Positions 8,921 through 21,266 of a stretch of 64,000 bases of DNA are shown piece after piece (position 1 is the first letter of the stretch; every line of letters starts with the position of its first letter). A program made the position numbers and the translations under genes. The DNA is from Bacteroidota bacterium (GTDB taxonomy: Bacteria > Bacteroidota > Bacteroidia > 2-12-FULL-35-15), in assembly GCA_025963715.1 (NCBI GenBank), contig JAOQAG010000010.1:1-64000 (forward strand), read 5' to 3'. Under the pieces are notes generated by a model. That model was not told the origin of the DNA. It ran no database searches and worked only from the letters and a program-made list of their open reading frames with translations.

Positions 8921-10642
8921 TTAAGTATTTAATAAAAAACTAAACGTGGAACCGGCACCTAATTCGCTTTCCACATTTATTTTTCCGCCTTGTGCTTCAA
9001 TAAACTCTTTGCTGATGGCTAGTCCCAGACCGGTTCCCGTTTTATTACTTCCCGGCACCTGGAAATATTTATCAAATATTTTATCGCGGTAACGGCTGTC
9101 GATCCCTTTGCCATTGTCTTTTACAGCAAACAAAACCCGCTCCTGCTCTTGTTTTACAAAAATCGTTATTTTACTTTGATCGGGGGAATAACGGATCGCA
9201 TTGGTTAAAAAATTGATCAGCACCCAGGCCGTTTTTTCCGTATCTGCATTTACTCTTGGCAAACGTTCGTTCGCTTCTGTTACAATTTCTATTTGCTTTT
9301 GCTCTGCCTGTATTTTCACAGCATCCATGGCATACTGAATAATCTCATACGGATCGCTTTTTTGAATGTTCAGTTGAATATTCCCGGTTTCCACCTGCGA
9401 TAAATTCAGCAGCTCGCTGGTTATTTTCAGCAACCGGTTGCTATCGTCTTTAATGCTTTCGATTAGTTGCTGCTGCTCTTCATTGATCTCACCTGTTTTA
9501 TCATTTTCAAGTAATTGCAAGCTCATTTTGATCGACGCGATCGGCGTTTTTAATTCATGCGAAATGGTAGCAATAAAACTCGTTTTTGCAAAATCCAATT
9601 CTTTGAACGGTGTTATATTTTTTAATACGATCACATGCCCGATCAGTTTTTTTTCTTTTTCTCCCGTTGGAATAATAGTAATATTTATGATCTCCTTTTC
9701 AAAAAAACTTTCTTTATTATCAGCAAAAATATTGATGTGCTTTTTCTCCGGTTCTGCCGGTTTCACAATCAGATCCTGGATCAGCGAGCGGACCAGGTCG
9801 TTGGTAACAGATACATCCTGCGCTTGTTTACCAATAATATTTTCGGGTTTTAATCCTGTTATTTTCAGCGCCTGGTCATTCACAAAAATAATTTTCATTC
9901 CTTCATCCAGCCCGATCACCGGATCATGCATATTGTTGACAAGCGTTTCAATTCGCTTTTTCTCAAATAATAATTTCGACAAACTGCTATTGTTGTATTC
10001 CTCCAGTTTTTCGGACATGGAGTTAAATGATCTTGCCAGTTCGCCAAATTCATTGTGACTTTCAAAATGCACGCGTTGTGAATAATTTTTCGCTGCAATT
10101 TGCTTAATACTATCCGTTAATTCTTTGATCGGGTTGGAAATATTATTCGGTAAATTGATCAGTAATGTAAACGCAATAATAAAGCAAAACGTTCCCGTGA
10201 TAGCGATCCACCATGTTGCACTGTGCGCTGTATCCTTTGCCACATTGCTTTTCCGCTGGATCGCTTCCATGTTCAGCTTCATGATCTCCGAAATATCCTT
10301 ACGGATCAATGGATGAATGGAGTTGTCGGCAATATTATTTTTCAGTAATGCAAAATGCTGCTCCAATAACGCAGTCGCTTCTTTTTCACCGATCTCCGTA
10401 ATGTTTAATTCCTGCTGTTTCAGATTGGACTCAAACCTTGTAAACGCTTCTTTATCAGCAGGCAGCTCGTCCAGTGCCAGCATCATGTTGCGCGAGTATT
10501 CCAGTGTATTATAATTAGCCACCAGAATATTTTTCGTATCCGATTTAAGCGCATTGATATACGCCGCACCCACAACCGATAAAATAATGATCATGATAAA
10601 AAGCAAGCCGACACCCAGCGTTAATTTTGTTTTAATTTTCAT
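8921..10642 (-). CDS. HAMP/PAS sensor histidine kinase at the distal end of the kdp locus
   Basis: Two N-terminal TM segments, HAMP, PAS, H-box FIATISHELKTPIASIKMSLQLL, GTGLGLAISKEFIEAQGGKI. Confidence 0.92.
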   Translation of the reverse strand: MKIKTKLTLGVGLLFIMIIILSVVGAAYINALKSDTKNILVANYNTLEYSRNMMLALDELPADKEAFTRFESNLKQQELNITEIGEKEATALLEQHFALLKNNIADNSIHPLIRKDISEIMKLNMEAIQRKSNVAKDTAHSATWWIAITGTFCFIIAFTLLINLPNNISNPIKELTDSIKQIAAKNYSQRVHFESHNEFGELARSFNSMSEKLEEYNNSSLSKLLFEKKRIETLVNNMHDPVIGLDEGMKIIFVNDQALKITGLKPENIIGKQAQDVSVTNDLVRSLIQDLIVKPAEPEKKHINIFADNKESFFEKEIINITIIPTGEKEKKLIGHVIVLKNITPFKELDFAKTSFIATISHELKTPIASIKMSLQLLENDKTGEINEEQQQLIESIKDDSNRLLKITSELLNLSQVETGNIQLNIQKSDPYEIIQYAMDAVKIQAEQKQIEIVTEANERLPRVNADTEKTAWVLINFLTNAIRYSPDQSKITIFVKQEQERVLFAVKDNGKGIDSRYRDKIFDKYFQVPGSNKTGTGLGLAISKEFIEAQGGKINVESELGAGSTFSFLLNT

Positions 10643-10823
10643 GATTTTAAAATCAAATGATCCTCTTTAAATTTTTTTTAGCAAACACAGTAACTACAGA
10701 GTCTTAAGACTTGATACTCACTACTTTTTAACACACAGCTAATTCCTAAATCCCAAATCCTTATTCCTTAATTATTTAACATACACAGTCTTGATACTAA
10801 CGACTTGATACTTGAGACTCTTT

Positions 10824-11954
10824 TCAACTAAGAATTACAAGATCCACATCCGCTGCGCTTAATTTTTTCAATAATTCGTTAAAAATAGTAGTAGACAAAA
10901 TTACTTTAAATAAATTTAAATGCGGTTTTCCTATGCACAAAGTCGTGATGTTTCGCTGTTCCGCCACTTCCAGGATTGTTTTGGAAACATTTTCGCTTTC
11001 CACCCGCACTATTTCAGCGCCCAGCTGCGTGGCCAGCTTAAAATTATTGATCAGGTGGCGTTGTTTGTCCAGCGCAATTTTATCGCTGCTTTCGGATGGA
11101 ATTTGCACATACAGCACGTACCATTTGCAATTATAATAACTGGCCAGCCTCGCCGTTTTCCGGATCACATTTTTCGCCGTTTGCTCGTTGCTGCTGATAC
11201 ACGCTAAAAACTTCTCGTGCCGGAAAGCATTATTTTTGGGAACTTCCGATTCCACCTTTCGCTCCACCTGGCTTGCCACCGCTTTTAACGCCAGCTCACG
11301 CAATTGCAATATCTGATCCGGTTTAAAAAAATTAGTCAGCGCCGTCTGGATCTTATCACTCGTATAGATCTTCCCTTCCTTCAACCGTGCGATCAGCTCA
11401 TCAGCAGTCAGATCTATGTTCACCACTTCATCCGCCATCTGCAACACGCTATCCGGGATCCGTTCTTTTACTTCAACGCCGGTAATGTGTTTTATTTCTT
11501 CATTCAAACTTTCAATGTGCTGGATATTCACCGCACTGATCACATTGATGCCCGCGTCTAAAATATCGACTACGTCCTGCCATCTCTTTTCGTTTTTACT
11601 ACCTTCCACATTCGTATGCGCCAATTCATCCACCACCACAATTTCCGGTCGCAGACTGATCACTGCCGGTACATCCAGTTCTTCCAGCTCTTTGCCTTTG
11701 TAAAATAATTTCCTTCGCGGGATCAGTGGTAGTCCTTCCAGCAGCTCATGTGTTTCCTTCCGGTGATGCATTTCAATATAACCAACCTTTACATCAATGC
11801 CGTTTTTCAATAAAGAACTTGCTTCCTGCAGCATACGATACGTTTTACCCACACCGGCGCTCATGCCGATGTAGATCTTGAATTTCCCGCGCCGCGATTT
11901 TTTGATCAGCTCCAGGAAATGCTGGACGTTTTCTTCTTTATTAGTTGAGTTCAA
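10824..11954 (-). CDS. kdpD: KdpD N-terminal sensor protein plus USP-like domain, no kinase domain
   Basis: GKFKIYIGMSAGVGKTYRMLQEA Walker A, ELAHTNVEGSKNEKRWQDVVDIL typical of KdpD N-domain; ends after the USP-like region (376 aa). Confidence 0.92.
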   Translation of the reverse strand: MNSTNKEENVQHFLELIKKSRRGKFKIYIGMSAGVGKTYRMLQEASSLLKNGIDVKVGYIEMHHRKETHELLEGLPLIPRRKLFYKGKELEELDVPAVISLRPEIVVVDELAHTNVEGSKNEKRWQDVVDILDAGINVISAVNIQHIESLNEEIKHITGVEVKERIPDSVLQMADEVVNIDLTADELIARLKEGKIYTSDKIQTALTNFFKPDQILQLRELALKAVASQVERKVESEVPKNNAFRHEKFLACISSNEQTAKNVIRKTARLASYYNCKWYVLYVQIPSESSDKIALDKQRHLINNFKLATQLGAEIVRVESENVSKTILEVAEQRNITTLCIGKPHLNLFKVILSTTIFNELLKKLSAADVDLVILS

Positions 11955-12192
11955 AGTTCGAAAGTTTAAAGTTTGCTGTGCGGATCGCTTGCGCGATTAT
12001 TTTACTACAAAGGCACTAAGGCGCAAAGAAAAAATGTATTCAGAGAAATATTAATACCTGGTCACAAGCTAATTCACATAGTCCACATGCAGCAAACCAA
12101 TGAACCATTGAACATTGAACCAATGAACGCATTTCAAACACAGTTCAGGCATCGCCCCCTCTCTTGCGGAGAGGGGATGAAGGGGAGAGGTC

Positions 12193-13551
12193 CTAGATTC
12201 TAAACAACACAGCAAAAATAATCCGGTTCTCCGATCTCACTAAATCCGGAACCCAACCTGCAGGCAAAGCTGTTGTTGTATATCCCGACGGTGATGTAAC
12301 ACCGCCATGTCCCGCAAAATACGGCACACTCGATTCCCTGTGTACATATTCCACTCTGAACGAAATACTCTGGTTCGGCATCCATTCTAAATTCGTGGAA
12401 GCATCCCAGCCTTCAAACTGATCGCCGGGATTTGCACTAAACGGATGCGTTCCTGCAGTTGTTGTTGGATTTGTTGGATTCGGCAACGGGCTTGCATCTC
12501 CTGTTGGATAAAGCACTAAATAACGGCCGGGGTTCGACATGTATCCGCCTCCGAACGTCCATGCGAATTTATTTTTATGAAACCAGATCCGGTTATAAAA
12601 CATTGCGCTTGCAAAATATTGCGCAGGACCTTTTACCGAATCCGTCGTAAATCCATTTACACCATCTCCTTTTTCAAAACCAATATCTCCTGTCAACGAA
12701 AATGCCATCTGGCTAATTCCTTTTGATCCTTTGTTATGATAATACCTTACCAACAAACTATTATCGGAATGGAATCTATGTCTGCCCGGTAAACCTGCAG
12801 CATCGCTTCCCCAATAATCATTTGTAAGCAATTTTACATTTTCATTCGGGCACCACGTAATATTTCCGCCTAAACCGGGCATTTCATTAAACATTCCGTA
12901 ACTCTGCCATCCGTTGATCGCCCACAATTCCACTTTTAATTTAGCCGATGGAAATAATTGCACACGCAAACCATTGAAAAACCAGGGCGTATTATCCGAT
13001 GTAAACGATGCCTGGTATTCCCAGTTCTCCGATTGATAATAAGAGTTCAAACCAATGTACGACATAAACATTCCCGCATCCACATTGATCCCGTGCATCA
13101 CATTAAAATGATAACCCGCATAACCTTCGCTGATGTAACGGTACACATTCGCCAGGTCATATTGTCCGCGGAACGGGCTGTAATCATTGCGCGGAACAAC
13201 GGTTGAGCGCGTTCCGAACTGCGTCATGATCCTTCCCCGCGCGCCTTTGTAATAAAAATCGCCGCCCAGGTTTACACTCGATACTTCCATTTCATTGTTA
13301 CGTGCCAATGCCGTAGAACCCACCACCGTATGGTCAATTGGGTTGTTGCCGGAATAAGTATAATTCACATCCACCATCACAGTGGGCGTAAAATAAGGAA
13401 TGTGAAAAACCGATGAATCCCTGCGGTCGCTACCATTCTGCCACGTTTGATCCTGCCCTTCAAATGCAATTTGTGATTTAACGGAATCTTTTTGCGCCAT
13501 CAAACTCAGTGTTGATCCGATGAGTACGATGGAAATAAAGTGTGTTTTCAT
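12193..13551 (-). CDS. Outer membrane beta-barrel porin-like protein in kdp operon
   Basis: Signal peptide, aromatic/glycine-rich beta-barrel pattern, C-terminal ENRIIFAVLFRI; same strand between kdpC and kdpD. Confidence 0.8.
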   Translation of the reverse strand: MKTHFISIVLIGSTLSLMAQKDSVKSQIAFEGQDQTWQNGSDRRDSSVFHIPYFTPTVMVDVNYTYSGNNPIDHTVVGSTALARNNEMEVSSVNLGGDFYYKGARGRIMTQFGTRSTVVPRNDYSPFRGQYDLANVYRYISEGYAGYHFNVMHGINVDAGMFMSYIGLNSYYQSENWEYQASFTSDNTPWFFNGLRVQLFPSAKLKVELWAINGWQSYGMFNEMPGLGGNITWCPNENVKLLTNDYWGSDAAGLPGRHRFHSDNSLLVRYYHNKGSKGISQMAFSLTGDIGFEKGDGVNGFTTDSVKGPAQYFASAMFYNRIWFHKNKFAWTFGGGYMSNPGRYLVLYPTGDASPLPNPTNPTTTAGTHPFSANPGDQFEGWDASTNLEWMPNQSISFRVEYVHRESSVPYFAGHGGVTSPSGYTTTALPAGWVPDLVRSENRIIFAVLFRI

Positions 13552-13575
13552 TTGTTTTATTTTTTTGTTTGTTTT

Positions 13576-14175
13576 TTAGTTTACAGATTGACTTGCTAAA
13601 TAATTTACCCTGTACATTTTATGAACAGCATCATAAGCTGAACTATTTTTTAAATCATTAAATTCAACATCCAGCAGGTCATGAAATTTTATGTTTCCCG
13701 GAAATGCCTTTTTAAGATTGATAAGTGTTAAAGGATATATTTCAGAACTGAGCGTAGTGCTGAAAAAATAATGCGGCACCAGCTGCGTTGTTTTACCTGT
13801 ACTGGAAACAACCGGTACATCTGCAATATAGATCACGATCGTTCTATTCTCAACGATCAAAAATTCCTGGTCGTTATTTTTGAAAAAACGATACGTCTTT
13901 CCATCACAGGCACGATAACCGAAGATGCTATCCTTTTTTAATTGCGTTTTTTTATTTCCACAAATCACATCCACGTAATTTTTTGCTAAAAAATGATTCA
14001 GCTTTATTTTCCCCGCTGATGAATCACAATTGATTTCATAGGAAAGTTTATTGTTAGTATAATCCGTGGCATTCATGTACATTCCGCTTTGCGCGAACAA
14101 CACTATCGGTGCAAACACTAATTGTATAAAAAATAATTTCAGCGATTTCATGATAATTTGTTTTTTAGAAAACAT
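13576..14175 (-). CDS. Hypothetical exported protein within kdp operon
   Basis: Signal-peptide-like MKSLKLFFIQLVFAPIVLFAQ; no recognised family. Probable start at Met9. Confidence 0.75.
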   Translation of the reverse strand: MFSKKQIIMKSLKLFFIQLVFAPIVLFAQSGMYMNATDYTNNKLSYEINCDSSAGKIKLNHFLAKNYVDVICGNKKTQLKKDSIFGYRACDGKTYRFFKNNDQEFLIVENRTIVIYIADVPVVSSTGKTTQLVPHYFFSTTLSSEIYPLTLINLKKAFPGNIKFHDLLDVEFNDLKNSSAYDAVHKMYRVNYLASQSVN

Positions 14176-14201
14176 AACACAGTCTTGCTACTTGATACTA
14201 A

Positions 14202-14768
14202 CTACCTGATACTATTTAATTCTATATTCAATTCCAGCACATTTACTTTCTCTGTCCCGAACATTCCCCACAACGGTTTCTGAATATTTTTTTCAACAAG
14301 CTGTTTTACTTTTTCTTCCGGGATCTTTCTTACTTGCGCAATCCGTTTCACTTGCACCAAAGCCGCTTCCGCCGAAATATCCGGATCCAGTCCGCTCCCC
14401 GATGCGGTCACCAGGTCCGCCGGAATATCTTTTTTCTGCAGATACGGATGTCGCACTAAAAACGCATCGATCCTCGCCTGCACTTCTTTTAAATAATCCG
14501 GGTTGCTCGGACCTTTATTACTTCCGCCACTTCCCGCTGCATTATAATTTACTGCAGAAGGACGGCCTAAAAAATAAATTGAGTCCGTAAACGATTGCCC
14601 GATCTTTTGAAAACCCACAATCTTTCCGTTTACTTCCACCGTTTCGCCTTTACCTTTTGCAGGAGCAAATTGTGCAATCCCCGTGATCGCAAGCGGATAC
14701 AGAACCGAGAAAAATACAAGGCAAATAATTGTTAACCTGAATGCTGAAAAAATACCAGAGAATTTCAT
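14202..14768 (-). CDS. kdpC: Potassium-transporting ATPase subunit C
   Basis: LVFFSVLYPLAITGIAQFAP; GSGLDPDISAEAALVQVKRIAQVR; follows kdpB. Confidence 0.97.
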   Translation of the reverse strand: MKFSGIFSAFRLTIICLVFFSVLYPLAITGIAQFAPAKGKGETVEVNGKIVGFQKIGQSFTDSIYFLGRPSAVNYNAAGSGGSNKGPSNPDYLKEVQARIDAFLVRHPYLQKKDIPADLVTASGSGLDPDISAEAALVQVKRIAQVRKIPEEKVKQLVEKNIQKPLWGMFGTEKVNVLELNIELNSIR

Positions 14769-14780
14769 TGTATAATTTTT

Positions 14781-16823
14781 TTAAATAAATAAGGAAACAA
14801 ATAAATCGATCAGCTTGATCCCGATAAACGGAATGATAATACCGCCCAAACCATAGATCAATAAATTACGTTGTAAAATGGCGCTCGCACCAATCGGTTT
14901 ATACGCAACTCCCTTCAATGCCAATGGAATCAGCACCGGAATGATGATCGCGTTAAAGATCACCGCCGAAAGAATCGCACTTTGCGGACTGTGCAGATTC
15001 ATAATATTTAATCCCTGCAAAGCCGGAATAGAAGCAATGAACAAAGCCGGAACGATCGCAAAATATTTTGCCACATCATTCGCAATGCTAAACGTGGTCA
15101 GCGTTCCACGTGTCATCAATAATTGTTTTCCAATCTCCACGATCTCAATTAATTTGGTCGGATCATTATCCAGGTCCACCATATTCCCCGCTTCTTTTGC
15201 CGCCTGCGTACCACTGTTCATCGCCACGCCCACATCTGCCTGCGCCAGTGCCGGTGCATCATTCGTACCATCACCCATCATCGCCACCAGCTTACCGCTT
15301 TGTTGTTCTTTTTTGATATAATTCATTTTATCTTCTGGTTTTGCTTCCGCGATAAAATCATCCACACCTGCTTTTTGGGCGATAAATTTTGCGGTAAGCG
15401 GATTATCTCCCGTTACCATTACTGTTTTTACACCCATTTTCCGCAGGCGCTCAAAACGTTCCAGGATGCCGGTTTTAATAATATCCTGTAATTCGATCAC
15501 ACCCAATACTTTCTCATTTTGTGACACTACCAGTGGAGTTCCGCCATTGCTCGAAATTATTCTTACTTTTTCAGCAACTTCCGTTGGAAAAATATTTCCC
15601 GCCTTTTCAGAAATCGTTTTGATCGCATCATATGCTCCTTTCCGGATCCGCGTGTCTCCAAAATTAATTCCCGAACTCCTGGTTTCCGCAGTAAATTTGA
15701 TGTACGTAGGATTGTTGATTTCGTAATCACGCGGATTAATTCCCGCCAGCTCAATGATCGATTTCCCTTCCGGCGTTTCATCCGCCATCGAGCTTAATAC
15801 AGCACTTTTAATTAATTGCTGTTCCTCAATTCCATCTGCTGCATAAAAATGCGTCGCCTTCCTGTTCCCGATCGTGATCGTTCCGGTTTTATCCAGCAGC
15901 AATACATCAATATCACCGGCCGTTTCCACAGCCTTCCCGGATTTAGTGATCACATTTGCACGCAATGCCCTGTCCATTCCGGCAATCCCGATCGCCGATA
16001 ATAAACCGCCGATCGTGGTCGGGATCAAACACACAAACAACGAAATAAATGCCGCGATCGTGATCGGTGTATGCGCATAATCCGCAAACGGTTTCAGCGT
16101 TACACACACAATAATAAAAATCAATGTAAATGCCGCAAGCAGTATCGTTAACGCAATTTCATTCGGCGTTTTTTGTCGGCTCGCACCTTCCACCAACGCA
16201 ATCATTTTATCCAAAAAGTTTTCGCCCGGCTCGGTTGTTACCTGCACTTTTATTTTATCCGACAGCACTTTCGTTCCACCCGTCACGCTGCTTTTATCCC
16301 CCCCCGATTCCCTGATCACCGGTGCCGATTCACCCGTAATAGCACTTTCATCGATCGTTGCAATTCCTTCAATGATCTCCCCATCGGTCGGAATAATATC
16401 GCCCGCTTCACAGATAAACACATCGCCTTTTACCAACGATGCCGATGAAACAATTTTTATTTCATCCACTTTAAATTCGCCCAGCGGAAATATTTTTTTC
16501 GCCGGTGTTTCTTCCCGCGTTTTTCGCAAGCTGTCTGCCTGTGCCTTTCCTCTTGCTTCTGCCAGCGCTTCCGCGAAATTGGCAAACAACAACGTGGCAA
16601 ACAGAATTAAAAAAACAGTGAGATTATATACAAAGCTTCCCTGCTCTTTTTCTCCGCATAAGATAGATGCACACACTAGCAACATCACGGCAGTTCCAAT
16701 CTCTACCGCAAACATCACCGGATTTTTATACATGTTTTTCGGGTTCAGTTTTATGAACGACTGTTTTAAAGCGCCTTTCATTAAAGCACTATCAAACAAC
16801 GACACGTGATTTTTATTTTTCAT
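14781..16823 (-). CDS. kdpB: Potassium-transporting ATPase subunit B (P-type ATPase)
   Basis: [14 protein letters not shown] phosphorylation motif, [53 protein letters not shown]. Confidence 0.99.
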
Positions 16824-16841
16824 TTTAAAATTTCTTTACAA

Positions 16842-18566
16842 TTAATTCATGCTGAAATATTCTGCGAACGGGCCAAGCGCCAATGCCGGGAAGAAGGATA
16901 AAGCCGCAATAATAAAGATCACTGCAAACACCATGATCCCGAATGTGGATGTATCCGTTTTCAACGTCCCTGCGCTTTCAGGGATGTATTTTTTTTTTGC
17001 TAATAAACCTGCAATTGCCAGCGGGCCAATGATCGGGAGGTAACGGCTCAGTAACATTACAATTCCTGTAGTAATATTCCAGAATGGATTATTATCACCT
17101 AATCCTTCAAAACCACTTCCGTTATTCGCAGCACTCGAAGTATATTCATACAGCATTTCGGAAAAACCGTGATGCCCCGGATTATTCAGCCAACCGCTTG
17201 CTTTGCCATTGTACCAATATCCCATATCGGTGTTATGCGCTGTAAAATAAGCAGCAAGCGCTGTTCCCGCCAGGATCAGTAATGGATGCAGGATCGCAAT
17301 GATCGCCGCAATTTTCACTTCACGTGCTTCTACTTTTTTACCTAATAATTCAGGCGTTCTTCCTACCATCAAACCCGAAATGAATACAGCGAGTATTATG
17401 AAAATATAAAAATTTAAAAAACCTACACCTACTCCGCCATAAAGCGAATTTACCATCATCCCAAGCATTGCCAAACCTCCTGTGAGCGGTGTAAAACTAT
17501 CATGCATCGCATTTACCGATCCGTTGGAAGTTACCGTTGTGGTAATCCCCCAATACGCCGAAGCTGCCGAACCAAAACGGACTTCTTTTCCTTCCATGCT
17601 TCCCATCTGCTGGTCGATCCCCATTTTTGTGATCGCGCTGTTGCCTTTCATTTCCTGCATTACCGCCGGGATCAGCAGCATCAGAAAACCGATCGTCATC
17701 ACACCTAAGATCATCCAGGCTAATTTTTTACGTTTCAAATAATAACCCAATGCAAACACCATCCCGATCGGAATTAAAATGATCAGTATATTTTCTACCG
17801 CATTTGTCAGGTATGTTGGGTTTTCCAGCGGGTGTGCCGAGTTAGCCCCAAAATACCCGCCACCGTTCGTTCCCGCCTGCTTGATCGCCACCATGGCCGC
17901 CGCCGGGCCGCGCGAAACCTGCACCGTATCACCCTGCAAAGTGGTGATCGTTTGTTTTCCTTCCCAGTTCATCGGTGTACCGCTAAACACAAGGATGATC
18001 GCAGCAATAAAAGAAATTGGAAATAAAATGCGCGTACAGCTTTTTATAAAATAATCATAAAAGTTACCCAGCTTCTCCGATTGCCTGTCCTTCATTGCGT
18101 TGAAAACCATTGCACATGCTGCCATTCCCGTTCCTGCAGTTACAAATTGTAAAAACATAATTCCAGCAACCTGCGATAAATACGTCAGTCCGCTTTCACC
18201 CGAATAATGCTGCAAATTGCAGTTCACTAAAAAAGAAATAGTGGTATTAAATGCCAGATCCGGCGACATCGACGGATTTCCATCCGGGTTGAACGGCAGC
18301 CAGCCCTGGTTCATCAAGATGAAAAAACAAAGAAAAAACCAGATCACATTAATGATCAGCAGCGCATACAAATGCTGCTTCCAGTTCATTTCCGCTTTTG
18401 CATCAATTCCGCTTGCGCGAAAGAACAAGCGTTCCAGCGGGTTAAAAACCGGATCTAAAAATGTTTTTTCACCGGCATATACTTTTGCAATGTATTTTCC
18501 CAGCGGGATCGCTAATCCAACAGTAACAATAAACATAGCAACAATGCCAAAAATTTCTGTATTCAT
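16842..18566 (-). CDS. kdpA: Potassium-transporting ATPase subunit A
   Basis: Translation matches KdpA (NCNLQHYSGESGLTYLSQ, NGGGYFGANSAHPLENPT, TPELLGKKVEAREVKIA). Confidence 0.99.
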   Translation of the reverse strand: MNTEIFGIVAMFIVTVGLAIPLGKYIAKVYAGEKTFLDPVFNPLERLFFRASGIDAKAEMNWKQHLYALLIINVIWFFLCFFILMNQGWLPFNPDGNPSMSPDLAFNTTISFLVNCNLQHYSGESGLTYLSQVAGIMFLQFVTAGTGMAACAMVFNAMKDRQSEKLGNFYDYFIKSCTRILFPISFIAAIILVFSGTPMNWEGKQTITTLQGDTVQVSRGPAAAMVAIKQAGTNGGGYFGANSAHPLENPTYLTNAVENILIILIPIGMVFALGYYLKRKKLAWMILGVMTIGFLMLLIPAVMQEMKGNSAITKMGIDQQMGSMEGKEVRFGSAASAYWGITTTVTSNGSVNAMHDSFTPLTGGLAMLGMMVNSLYGGVGVGFLNFYIFIILAVFISGLMVGRTPELLGKKVEAREVKIAAIIAILHPLLILAGTALAAYFTAHNTDMGYWYNGKASGWLNNPGHHGFSEMLYEYTSSAANNGSGFEGLGDNNPFWNITTGIVMLLSRYLPIIGPLAIAGLLAKKKYIPESAGTLKTDTSTFGIMVFAVIFIIAALSFFPALALGPFAEYFSMN

Positions 18567-18663
18567 TTTTTAAAGGATTTAATTTTTCAGTCACAGATTC
18601 ACAGATTTTTTGGAAGTAAGCCAATAAATAATCTGTGTAATACTTTTTTGTTTTTTTATCTGT

Positions 18664-18683
18664 GTCCCGATAGCTATCGGGAC
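18664..18683. repeat. Perfect 20-bp palindrome GTCCCGATAGCTATCGGGAC
   Basis: Read directly; lies between kdpA start and kdpF stop. Confidence 0.85.
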
Positions 18684-18697
18684 TGTGGCAGAAACCA

Positions 18698-18775
18698 TTA
18701 AAATTTCTCCGGTTTAAACAACACATACACCAGGTAACAAAACATCACAATGGATAAAATAAATAGTGCGGTCAT
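18698..18775 (-). CDS. kdpF: KdpF-like 25-aa membrane subunit
   Basis: Minus-strand translation MTALFILSIVMFCYLVYVLFKPEKF*; single TM ending in KPEKF, immediately upstream of kdpA; below the ORF-track size cut-off. Confidence 0.9.
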   Translation of the reverse strand: MTALFILSIVMFCYLVYVLFKPEKF

Positions 18776-18778
18776 GAT

Positions 18779-18862
18779 TTATATTTTTTCAAAAAATTGA
18801 ACTGCTTTAAAACACAAGGCAAACAAAGCCATGGTTACGATCATTAAAATTATTGTTGCCAT
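18779..18862 (-). CDS. 27-aa single-TM microprotein upstream of kdpF
   Basis: Minus-strand translation MATIILMIVTMALFALCFKAVQFFEKI*; 3-nt gap to the kdpF start codon. Confidence 0.7.
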   Translation of the reverse strand: MATIILMIVTMALFALCFKAVQFFEKI

Positions 18863-18874
18863 TTTTTTATAGGA

Positions 18875-19219
18875 TTAAATTCCGGATGCATTCACCTGTT
18901 TTAAATATTCCGCTTTAAGCGATGTTGGAAATAAATTATGAATGTTGCATTTATGCAATTCCATAAAACACGAAACCGAATACACAAACACATTCGATAC
19001 GGCATTTTTCACTTCCGCATTTCCGGTTTCCAATAACATTTCCGCAACACGAAAACATTTTTTTGCTCTTGCAATATTTCCACTGATGATCATTTTTTTT
19101 GTTACCGAAGCAAAACGGTCCATTTGTTTGTAAATGGTAGTGACTTGATTTTTCATCTGAATTAAGATTTGTTTTCCCCCACATTCCAAAACACATTCCG
19201 GTTTGCCATAAACCAGCAA
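18875..19219 (-). CDS. Hypothetical alpha-helical protein at the head of the kdp cluster (likely starts at internal Met, MKNQVTTIYKQMD, ~19153)
   Basis: Same strand, 12 nt from the 27-aa ORF; helical composition, no family recognised. Confidence 0.65.
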   Translation of the reverse strand: MLVYGKPECVLECGGKQILIQMKNQVTTIYKQMDRFASVTKKMIISGNIARAKKCFRVAEMLLETGNAEVKNAVSNVFVYSVSCFMELHKCNIHNLFPTSLKAEYLKQVNASGI

Positions 19220-19271
19220 AACAATTGTAAATAAAGGGAAGTAGAGAAATAGCAGAATTCCGGAAATAAAA

Positions 19272-19296
19272 AAAGCCTATCAAAACGATAGGCTTT
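19272..19296. terminator. Bidirectional intrinsic terminator
   Basis: AAAGCCTATC-AAAAC-GATAGGCTTT stem with flanking A and T runs. Confidence 0.75.
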
Positions 19297-19385
19297 TATC
19301 AAAATGGTAATGATAATATTTGGCAGTTAAAACATTCTCCCAAACAAATTACAAATAAACACACTTCCCATTCCTTGACTCTTCC

Positions 19386-19539
19386 GTCTTGTTCAGCAAT
19401 AGCGGGAATGAGCGCCGAACTAATGAAACTGAGAAAAAAGATGATTTTGTTTTTATCAAATCAGTGCGGAGAATTAATTGGCGATCATTAACCGCGGTTC
19501 TTCTGAGCGAGAGCGGAAGAAGAAATTGCATTACAAGAC
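19386..19539 (+). repeat. Structured dispersed repeat, copy A (154 bp)
   Basis: GTCTTGTTCAGCAATAGCGGGAATGAGCGCC ... GGCGATCATTAACCGCGGTTCTTCTGAGCGAGAGCGGAAGAAGAAATTGCATTACAAGAC. Confidence 0.9.
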
Positions 19540-19542
19540 AGG

Positions 19543-19558
19543 TCCCGCACGTGCGGGA
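19543..19558. repeat. Palindrome TCCCGCACGTGCGGGA adjacent to copy A
   Basis: Perfect 16-bp palindrome, also at 21546-21561. Confidence 0.85.
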
Positions 19559-19562
19559 TTGT

Positions 19563-19622
19563 AACTTTTTGCCCGCCCGACTGAACGAAATTTCAGTCGT
19601 TCGGGCGGGCCTTCAAAAAGTT
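19563..19622. repeat. Nested hairpin: AACTTTTTG...CAAAAAGTT with GCCCGCCCGA...TCGGGCGGGC inserted in its loop
   Basis: Comparison with uninterrupted AACTTTTTGCCTTCAAAAAGTT after copy C (~21567-21588). Confidence 0.85.
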
Positions 19623-19689
19623 AAAACCCAGAATAACATTCTCCAAAAAAATTTATCATTAATAAACCTACTCTCCCTCCAACTCTTCC

Positions 19690-19843
19690 GTCTTGTTCAG
19701 CAATAGCGGAAATGAGCGCCGGACGAATAAAACCTAGAAAGAAATTGCTTTCGAATATATCCAATCAGTGCAGAGAATTAATCGGCGATCATTAACCGCG
19801 GTTCTTCTGAGCGAGAGCGGAAGAAGAAATTGCATTACAAGAC
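19690..19843 (+). repeat. Structured dispersed repeat, copy B (154 bp)
   Basis: Same ends and right arm as copy A; divergent central segment. Confidence 0.9.
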
Positions 19844-19925
19844 AGGAAAGGTTTTTGCTACTTTTTGCCTTCAAAAAGTAGAAGAAAGCATAGCCACACA
19901 GCATTAAAAGAATAACAGAAAAAAC

Positions 19926-21266
19926 TCACTGAATCTGATACTCCTCCAGTTTCCTATACAGCGTAGCAATCCCAATCTCCAGCAAACGCGCAGTCTCCGC
20001 CTTATTACCTTTCGTATGGTTCAATACTTTTTGTATGTGTAATTTCTCAACGCTCGCCATCGAAAACGCAGAAAGCATTCCGCCCGGAGCAGCAGTTATA
20101 TGCTGCATTTCATAAGGAAGCGAATCGCAGGTAAGCACATCCGCATCCGACAGGATCACGCTGCGCTCAATAATATTTTTCAACTCACGGATATTCCCTT
20201 TCCAGGAATGGAGTTTCAATTTTGCAAGATATTCCTTGCTCAAAACAACATCCCGCTTGTTGATCTTCAATGAAAAAACTTTTGCAAAATGATTTGCCAG
20301 CTCTTCTATATCCTTTATCCGCTCACGCAATGGAGGCAGCACGATCTGGAATACACTCAGGCGGTAATACAGATCAAGGCGAAATCGTCCTTCCTCGCTT
20401 TCCTTTTGCAGATCACGATTGGTAGCCGCAATAATACGCACATCCGTTTTTATCGTTTTGGTATCCCCTACTTTTATAAACTCTTTCGCCTCCAGCACAC
20501 GCAATAATTTCGCCTGCAGATCTAAATTCATTTCACCGATCTCATCTAAAAAGATCGTTCCGCCATTCGCCTCTTCAAACAATCCTTTTTTATCTTTCAC
20601 TGCTCCCGTAAATGCACCGGCTTTGTGCCCGAATAATTCACTTTCCAGCAGCTCTTTACCAAACGCGCTGCAATTGATCGCAATAAATGGTTTGGAACTG
20701 CGCGCACCGGCAATATGGATCGCTTGTGAAAACACTTCTTTTCCTGTGCCGGTTTCACCCAGCAACAAAACAGTAGCATCCGTTGCCGCTACTTTTTTGG
20801 CAAGCGAAACCGCTTCCATTATCTTTTTTGAATCGCCAATGATCGTATCAAACGAATATTTTTCTCCAACGCGTTCCTCCAGATGTTGCAAACGCTTTTG
20901 CAGATTTACTTTTTCGATCGCCCGGTGCAGCAGCGGAATTATTTTGTTATTATCATCACCTTTCGTAATGTAATCAAACGCCCCATTCTTGATCGCCTGC
21001 ACGCCATCCGGAATATTTCCGTAAGCCGTTAAAACAATGATCTCAGTAAGCGGATAATTTTTTTTGATCTGCAGGCTCAACTCCACTCCATTTGCATCCG
21101 GAAGTTTAACATCGCACAGGATCACATCCACCTCCGTCTGTTCCAGCTTTTTCAACGCTGATTTTGCATCCCCGCATTCCAGCACACTAAATCCTTCCAG
21201 GCTGATGATCCGCGCCAGCAGCTTTCTTAGCTTCTCTTCATCGTCTATGATCAGGATTTTTTTCAC
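19926..21266 (-). CDS. Sigma-54-dependent response regulator (NtrC/AtoC family)
   Basis: Receiver MKKILIIDDEEKLRKLL...CDVKLPDANG, AAA+ GETGTGKEVFSQAIH, ESELFGHKAGAFTGA, Fis-type HTH C-terminus. Confidence 0.97.
   Translation of the reverse strand: MKKILIIDDEEKLRKLLARIISLEGFSVLECGDAKSALKKLEQTEVDVILCDVKLPDANGVELSLQIKKNYPLTEIIVLTAYGNIPDGVQAIKNGAFDYITKGDDNNKIIPLLHRAIEKVNLQKRLQHLEERVGEKYSFDTIIGDSKKIMEAVSLAKKVAATDATVLLLGETGTGKEVFSQAIHIAGARSSKPFIAINCSAFGKELLESELFGHKAGAFTGAVKDKKGLFEEANGGTIFLDEIGEMNLDLQAKLLRVLEAKEFIKVGDTKTIKTDVRIIAATNRDLQKESEEGRFRLDLYYRLSVFQIVLPPLRERIKDIEELANHFAKVFSLKINKRDVVLSKEYLAKLKLHSWKGNIRELKNIIERSVILSDADVLTCDSLPYEMQHITAAPGGMLSAFSMASVEKLHIQKVLNHTKGNKAETARLLEIGIATLYRKLEEYQIQ

Follow-up and report, generated by a model that had tools for sequence, protein, structure and literature searches.

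KdpF stabilises the KdpFABC complex of Escherichia coli (Gassel 1999, as cited in PMC11364881 and PMC5401905), and the papers on KdpFABC structure and mechanism that we found concern this E. coli complex. At the corresponding place, E. coli lacks a counterpart of the small frame described here (sORF1). In Clostridium acetobutylicum, kdpZYABCXDE forms one transcript with two extra genes (orfZ/orfY = kdpZ, kdpY) 5' of kdpA (cited in PMC5401905). A study in Caulobacter treats the region 5' of kdpF as a 5'UTR of ~100 nt (PMC8552747), long enough to contain such a frame. In a different enzyme, cytochrome bd-I, two single-helix small subunits occur, CydX and CydH/CydY (PMC8951039). A description of sORF1 was not found in our literature search, which covered few subscription papers, and the main text of published Ribo-seq papers on F. 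johnsoniae and S. meliloti does not mention kdp.

The kdp cluster of the window

The window, i.e. the whole stretch of 64,000 nucleotides analysed, contains a kdp cluster with all genes on the minus strand, listed here from 5' to 3':

19926..21266, minus strand: NtrC-type response regulator (RR), ORF; adjoins the kdp cluster on its 5' side, a conserved placement
18875..19157, minus strand: DUF7674 (PF24722) protein, ~93 aa from the ATG at 19157; 76.3 bits, cut-off 27
18779..18862, minus strand: sORF1, 27-aa single-TM microprotein MATIILMIVTMALFALCFKAVQFFEKI
18698..18775, minus strand: kdpF, 25 aa MTALFILSIVMFCYLVYVLFKPEKF; PF09604 and TIGR02115 above cut-off
16842..18566, minus strand: kdpA; PF03814, 767 bits
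14781..16823, minus strand: kdpB, ORF; conserved order
14202..14768, minus strand: kdpC; PF02669
13576..14175, minus strand: hypothetical 199-aa protein, in part of the kdp loci only
12193..13551, minus strand: BBP2 family putative outer-membrane porin; PF07642
10824..11954, minus strand: kinase-less KdpD (KdpD sensor and Usp domains); PF02702, PF00582; NF038185 below cut-off
8921..10642, minus strand: two-TM HAMP-PAS-HisKA-HATPase sensor kinase (HK) of the kdp cluster, conserved 3' of kdp

With small variations, this gene order is common to Bacteroidia kdp loci. Across 8921-21266, the window displays a feature of Bacteroidota kdp clusters: in place of KdpDE they have a kinase-less KdpD, a two-TM HK separate from it and an NtrC-type regulator. 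From its sequence, the response regulator is a putative sigma-54 activator. TGGCAC-N5-TTGC-like sites lie ~40–60 nt 5' of sORF1 in several loci that lack the DUF7674 gene (e.g. L221, L222, L218); however, a sigma-54 promoter directly 5' of sORF1 was dropped as a candidate, given a small excess of such sites over shuffles (16.8 vs 15.5 of 22) and no convincing site in the window. The DUF7674 gene, for which a longer TTG frame reaches 19219, usually lies next to sORF1 on the 5' side in Flavobacteriales, and Bacteroidota kdp loci regularly contain DUF7674 (PF24722) proteins, at times at least two per locus (window; L149, L155, L161). The BBP2 porin is likewise frequent in these clusters. Additional KdpA copies occur in L226 (G019), where two KdpA follow kdpC and the porin, and in L192 (G282), where a second KdpA follows kdpC in the same cluster.

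Re-reading the minus strand returned both small frames at the positions and with the translations given by the initial annotation. sORF1 starts with the ATG at 18862 and stops with the TAA at 18781-18779; after ATC, a spacing of 3 nt, kdpF starts with the ATG at 18775 and runs to the TAA at 18700-18698 (minus-strand text ...aaaaaaATGGCAACAATAATT...GAAAAAATATAA atc ATGACCGCACTA...). The latter frame, described at the outset as KdpF-like, indeed exceeds the cut-offs of both PF09604 (26.2 bits, cut-off 21.2) and TIGR02115 (28.3, cut-off 26.85) and is the sole KdpF match above cut-off genome-wide. The intergenic region between kdpF and kdpA holds a perfect palindrome, CCCGATAGCTATCGGG, at 18666-18681, with one occurrence in the window. 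In some Bacteroidota kdp loci (L026, L027, L031, L034, L098, L190, L200, L204, L207, L227), a third small single-TM ORF (e.g. MNKAKIKEIIVVICAWLVAFALVFLVFFKAKLLLNIK) is located near kdpF, either between kdpF and kdpA or 5' of sORF1; the window has none.

sORF1 is a conserved gene under purifying selection

The initial annotation had named absence of the 27-aa frame 5' of kdpF in other genomes as the outcome that would speak against it, and had predicted an FFEKI-type C-terminus. Across Bacteroidota, the frame proved to be conserved, and so did this C-terminus. A homologue of sORF1 lies directly 5' of kdpF in 80/80 of the best kdpA relatives from named genomes (77, together with the window, by scripted extraction and L010-L012, which the pattern missed, by reading), and all 79 distinct sequences end in E/D-K/N-I/V/M. 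The homologues are 27 or 28 aa long, with L6, L13, F14, F24, E25 and the C-terminal K/N-I conserved, and they are separated from kdpF by 3 nt in 64/78 loci and by 4 nt in 10/78. The 80 relatives include Flavobacterium, Fluviicola, Emticicia, Runella and Ignavibacteria, yet they are strongly weighted towards Flavobacterium, and kdpA relatives at family and order level belong to one genus only. Horizontal transfer to Proteobacteria via one of them, the record named Glaciecola amylolytica (CP034120, L010, CP034120.1), was considered and rejected, the phylum sample consisting of the same Bacteroidota genomes; the record is probably a misnamed Bacteroidota genome.

Given the weighting towards Flavobacterium, we used a more even panel of 295 Bacteroidia genomes, evenly drawn, of which 44 have KdpA above the cut-off. 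We defined the Bacteroidota sORF1 family by a length of 26–33 aa, one TM segment and an aromatic-acidic-[KNHQ]-[IVM] C-terminus; sORF1 shows these features and lies 5' of kdpF in the kdp operon, with G079 and G268 as exceptions. Leaving out G262, whose kdp locus begins at a contig end, sORF1 is present in 41/43 assessable loci, counting G154 (a truncated sORF1 in a low-completeness genome in which kdpA is split too), and absent from those of G106 and G180. When whole genomes of the panel were searched with the sORF1 profile, 43 genomes matched at E <= 0.01. Upstream of kdpA lie 38 of these 43 matches; those away from kdpA comprise three weak matches and two apparent kdp-remnant loci, and three kdp loci that the profile missed contain a diverged sORF1 (G069, G119, G218). 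In a panel spanning the phylum, every match whose locus was read has an adjacent kdpA, with one genome from outside the class (G549). Whole-genome profile matches are thus found almost only at kdp loci.

The substitution pattern is that of a coding frame. For the 79 distinct sequences, compared by the Nei-Gojobori method in pairs with at least 75% nucleotide identity, dN/dS is 0.146 for sORF1 and 0.106 for kdpF, and 1.43 and 2.66 for the sORF1 span in the other frames, figures that are descriptive and without a formal test, the pairs being phylogenetically dependent. The corresponding pN/pS is 0.21 for the sORF1 frame, compared with 1.4 and 2.4 for the two alternatives, which are interrupted by stops in 94–96% of sequences; on average, codon positions 1/2/3 differ by 0.25/0.13/0.43. 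In a column-shuffle null, computed for a subset, pN/pS reached a minimum of 0.54 versus 0.32 observed. Placement was assessed by counting ATG-started, strongly hydrophobic ORFs of 24–36 aa that end between -60 and +15 of a gene start. Such an ORF precedes kdpF in 40/46 loci (including L200, where a different TM ORF is counted and the sORF1 homologue sits one gene farther upstream), but kdpC in 0/45, the KdpD-N gene in 0/43, the HK gene in 0/42 and the RR gene in 0/43; matches before kdpB are the in-frame C-terminus of kdpA. Being short and unannotated, sORF1 could be taken for a chance open frame. Against this speak its conservation, its specificity in genome-wide searches, the substitution pattern and the placement counts, and we rejected it on conservation and substitution pattern as extremely improbable. 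Altogether, sORF1 is a genuine gene that annotation pipelines mostly miss; it is under protein-level purifying selection across Bacteroidota.

Topology, exceptional loci and look-alikes in other phyla

Although the two proteins stand side by side, sORF1 differs from KdpF in its conserved motif, and it neither matches a KdpF model nor resembles KdpF at profile level. It has no match in Pfam, NCBIfam or PHROG and stays under the cut-offs of both KdpF models (0 families in Pfam/NCBIfam), which kdpF of the window passes. Profile comparison of sORF1 with KdpF by hhalign, a method insensitive for such short proteins, gave a probability of 3.8 over one aligned column, so that an origin by KdpF duplication is without support from this comparison. 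In the PDB, an insensitive look-up found no credible chain for the sORF1 family and likewise none for the Bacteroidota KdpF profile. The initial annotation's view of a single TM segment followed by a charged C-terminus agrees with the family as a whole, in which a hydrophobic stretch is present and nearly all charges fall into the last half: basic residues are absent from the first 14 positions and acidic ones nearly so, while the last 13 carry on average 1.5 K/R and 1.8 D/E. By the positive-inside rule, this distribution predicts an N-out, C-in topology, as for KdpF.

A few loci loosen the association of sORF1 with kdpF and the pump. DUF7674-like genes intervene between sORF1 and kdpF in three of them (two genes in G283, one each in G119 and G094), hence sORF1 is not strictly a leader of kdpF. 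In G268 (L153/L225; 99% complete, no KdpA found), kdpFABC and KdpD-N are gone and sORF1 is intact, in the order DUF7674 - sORF1 (MEAIILTIIGLLFFGLFYKSIQWFDQI) - porin - full-length HK; in its congener G628, sORF1 is followed by kdpA. G079 shows RR - sORF1 - C-terminal HK fragment, which looks like a deletion. Such copies outside a kdp operon reflect either recent losses or a partner that is not the pump alone.

Beyond Bacteroidota, plasmid records bearing kdpA contain a 26–34 aa single-TM ORF directly 5' of kdpF (e.g. MMDIILLGTAIIFFALCFAYTRACDRL) in Rhizobium, Shinella, Sinorhizobium, Phyllobacterium, Azospirillum, Roseomonas, Pseudoroseomonas, Acetobacter, Neokomagataea, Paracoccus, Mycetohabitans and Deinococcus, and in Caballeronia too; most of these microproteins are unannotated. 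The Deinococcus order is kdpB, sORF, F-like, kdpA, kdpC, i.e. the pair stays with kdpA although kdpB lies upstream. No such ORF precedes kdpF/kdpA in the examples inspected from E. coli, Klebsiella, Proteus, S. aureus, Listeria, Enterococcus, Lactiplantibacillus, Halobacterium and Synechococcus. A tblastn search with the Rhizobium ORF hit 165 plasmids from five alphaproteobacterial genera, at places that are nearly all unannotated and that, where compared with the kdpA plasmid records, lie ~180–230 nt 5' of the matched part of kdpA; for six rhizobial sequences, pN/pS is 0.37 in frame versus 1.03 and 1.43 out of frame. In Mycetohabitans, the 34-aa single-TM ORF directly 5' of kdpF (MDLIYLAGIVLFLGLCMALAAGCDKL..., WP_212667346.1 / WP_191287747.1) is misnamed 'potassium ABC transporter ATPase' and has no family model; unlike Bacteroidota sORF1 it has a longer basic tail, and it is a candidate homologue only.

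The look-alikes share with Bacteroidota sORF1 the place, size, topology and acidic-basic-aliphatic end, while sequence similarity is weak. The Bacteroidota profile ranked the Rhizobium ORF first of 1146 ORFs (E = 6e-4), and in the reverse search the top three of 12910 ORFs were sORF1s, only at E = 0.07–1.2; profile A3 did not find sORF1 genome-wide in G000. Homology is suggested, not proven. These look-alikes, like the loose coupling to kdpF and the retention of sORF1 after loss of kdpFABC, were not anticipated by the initial annotation.

Possible roles and comparison with known systems

The gene was first put forward as a candidate for either an additional small KdpFABC subunit or a regulator of this complex. 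To this candidate, conservation can now be added, and the role remains the best reading yet, drawn from linkage, size, topology and selection. We favour the view that sORF1 probably provides KdpFABC, alongside KdpF, with another single-helix accessory subunit, because a selected, kdp-linked frame with this predicted topology and with counterparts elsewhere finds precedents in KdpF and in cytochrome bd-I. Its product would reside in the inner membrane with the N-terminus outside and the charged C-terminus (F/W-F-E/D-K/N-I) facing the cytoplasm, and its helix may pack against the membrane part of KdpF/KdpA/KdpB and, like a second KdpF, stabilise or tune the K+ pump. The KdpF-like function is suggested by analogy. 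That the pump is the partner is suggested by linkage, by the Deinococcus pair that stays with kdpA, and by the occurrence of counterparts where kdp regulation is expected to differ: we expect alpha- and betaproteobacteria to be regulated by KdpDE, and Bacteroidota by the NtrC-type RR and the two-TM HK, and counterparts despite different expected regulators point to the pump as what is shared.

The main rivals are turnover control and partnership with the HK. As MgtS and MgtR do in their systems, sORF1 could set the abundance of the pump in a non-stoichiometric manner, shielding KdpFABC from a membrane protease or sending it there. Size class and topology match those of known single-TM regulators, and operon linkage and selection fit as well; nothing specific speaks against such a role, which sequence cannot separate from that of a subunit; we consider it unlikely. 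Modelled on MgrB and PhoQ, sORF1 might instead be a partner of the membrane HK of the kdp cluster that reports on or damps kdp induction rather than a part of the pump. This HK is present in 15/15 sORF1 genomes tested, G268 keeps sORF1 with an intact HK and without kdpFABC, and in G106 (L209) the absence of sORF1 goes along with an HK that lacks the periplasmic domain. Yet G180, also without sORF1, keeps a periplasmic HK, the sORF1 gene adjoins kdpF-kdpA and not the HK gene, and look-alikes exist in genera for which this HK is not expected, namely Rhizobium, Azospirillum, Mycetohabitans and Deinococcus. With two or three cases, genomes lacking kdp or sORF1 are too few to decide the partner; on balance, HK partnership appears distinctly unlikely. 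The close spacing to kdpF would also suit a leader peptide, whose translation rather than product is coupled to that of kdpF-kdpA. Against it stand purifying selection at the amino-acid level, the one or two intervening genes in G283, G119 and G094, and an upstream region without an Rfam element above the gathering score, such that neither a fixed distance to the regulated start nor an RNA element, as expected of a leader or attenuator, is found; we regard this role as very improbable.

If sORF1 is an accessory subunit, KdpFABC might be a five-subunit complex in much of the bacteria (Bacteroidota, many alpha- and betaproteobacteria, Deinococcus), a generalisation that we offer tentatively. The fifth subunit, of ~27 aa, would have been overlooked because it is missing from the model species E. 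coli and passed over by gene callers. Were a second single-helix subunit standard elsewhere, the parts list of a textbook ion pump would be incomplete, studies of pumps from other phyla that omit the microprotein may be misled, and many unannotated genes would gain a name.

The orfZ/orfY genes of C. acetobutylicum resemble sORF1 in position, as two extra genes preceding kdpA; they presumably encode small hydrophobic peptides, and kdpZ/kdpY are a possible earlier sighting. Closer is KdpF itself, which shares with sORF1 a size of ~25–29 aa, one TM helix, the place at the head of the kdp operon and a charged C-terminus with an acidic-basic-hydrophobic end (KPEKF in KdpF, FFEKI in sORF1). CydH/CydY beside CydX is likewise a second single-helix small subunit limited to part of a family (PMC8951039); it belongs to another enzyme and CydH is encoded outside the operon, whereas sORF1, which we infer to bind the pump, is encoded next to kdpF.
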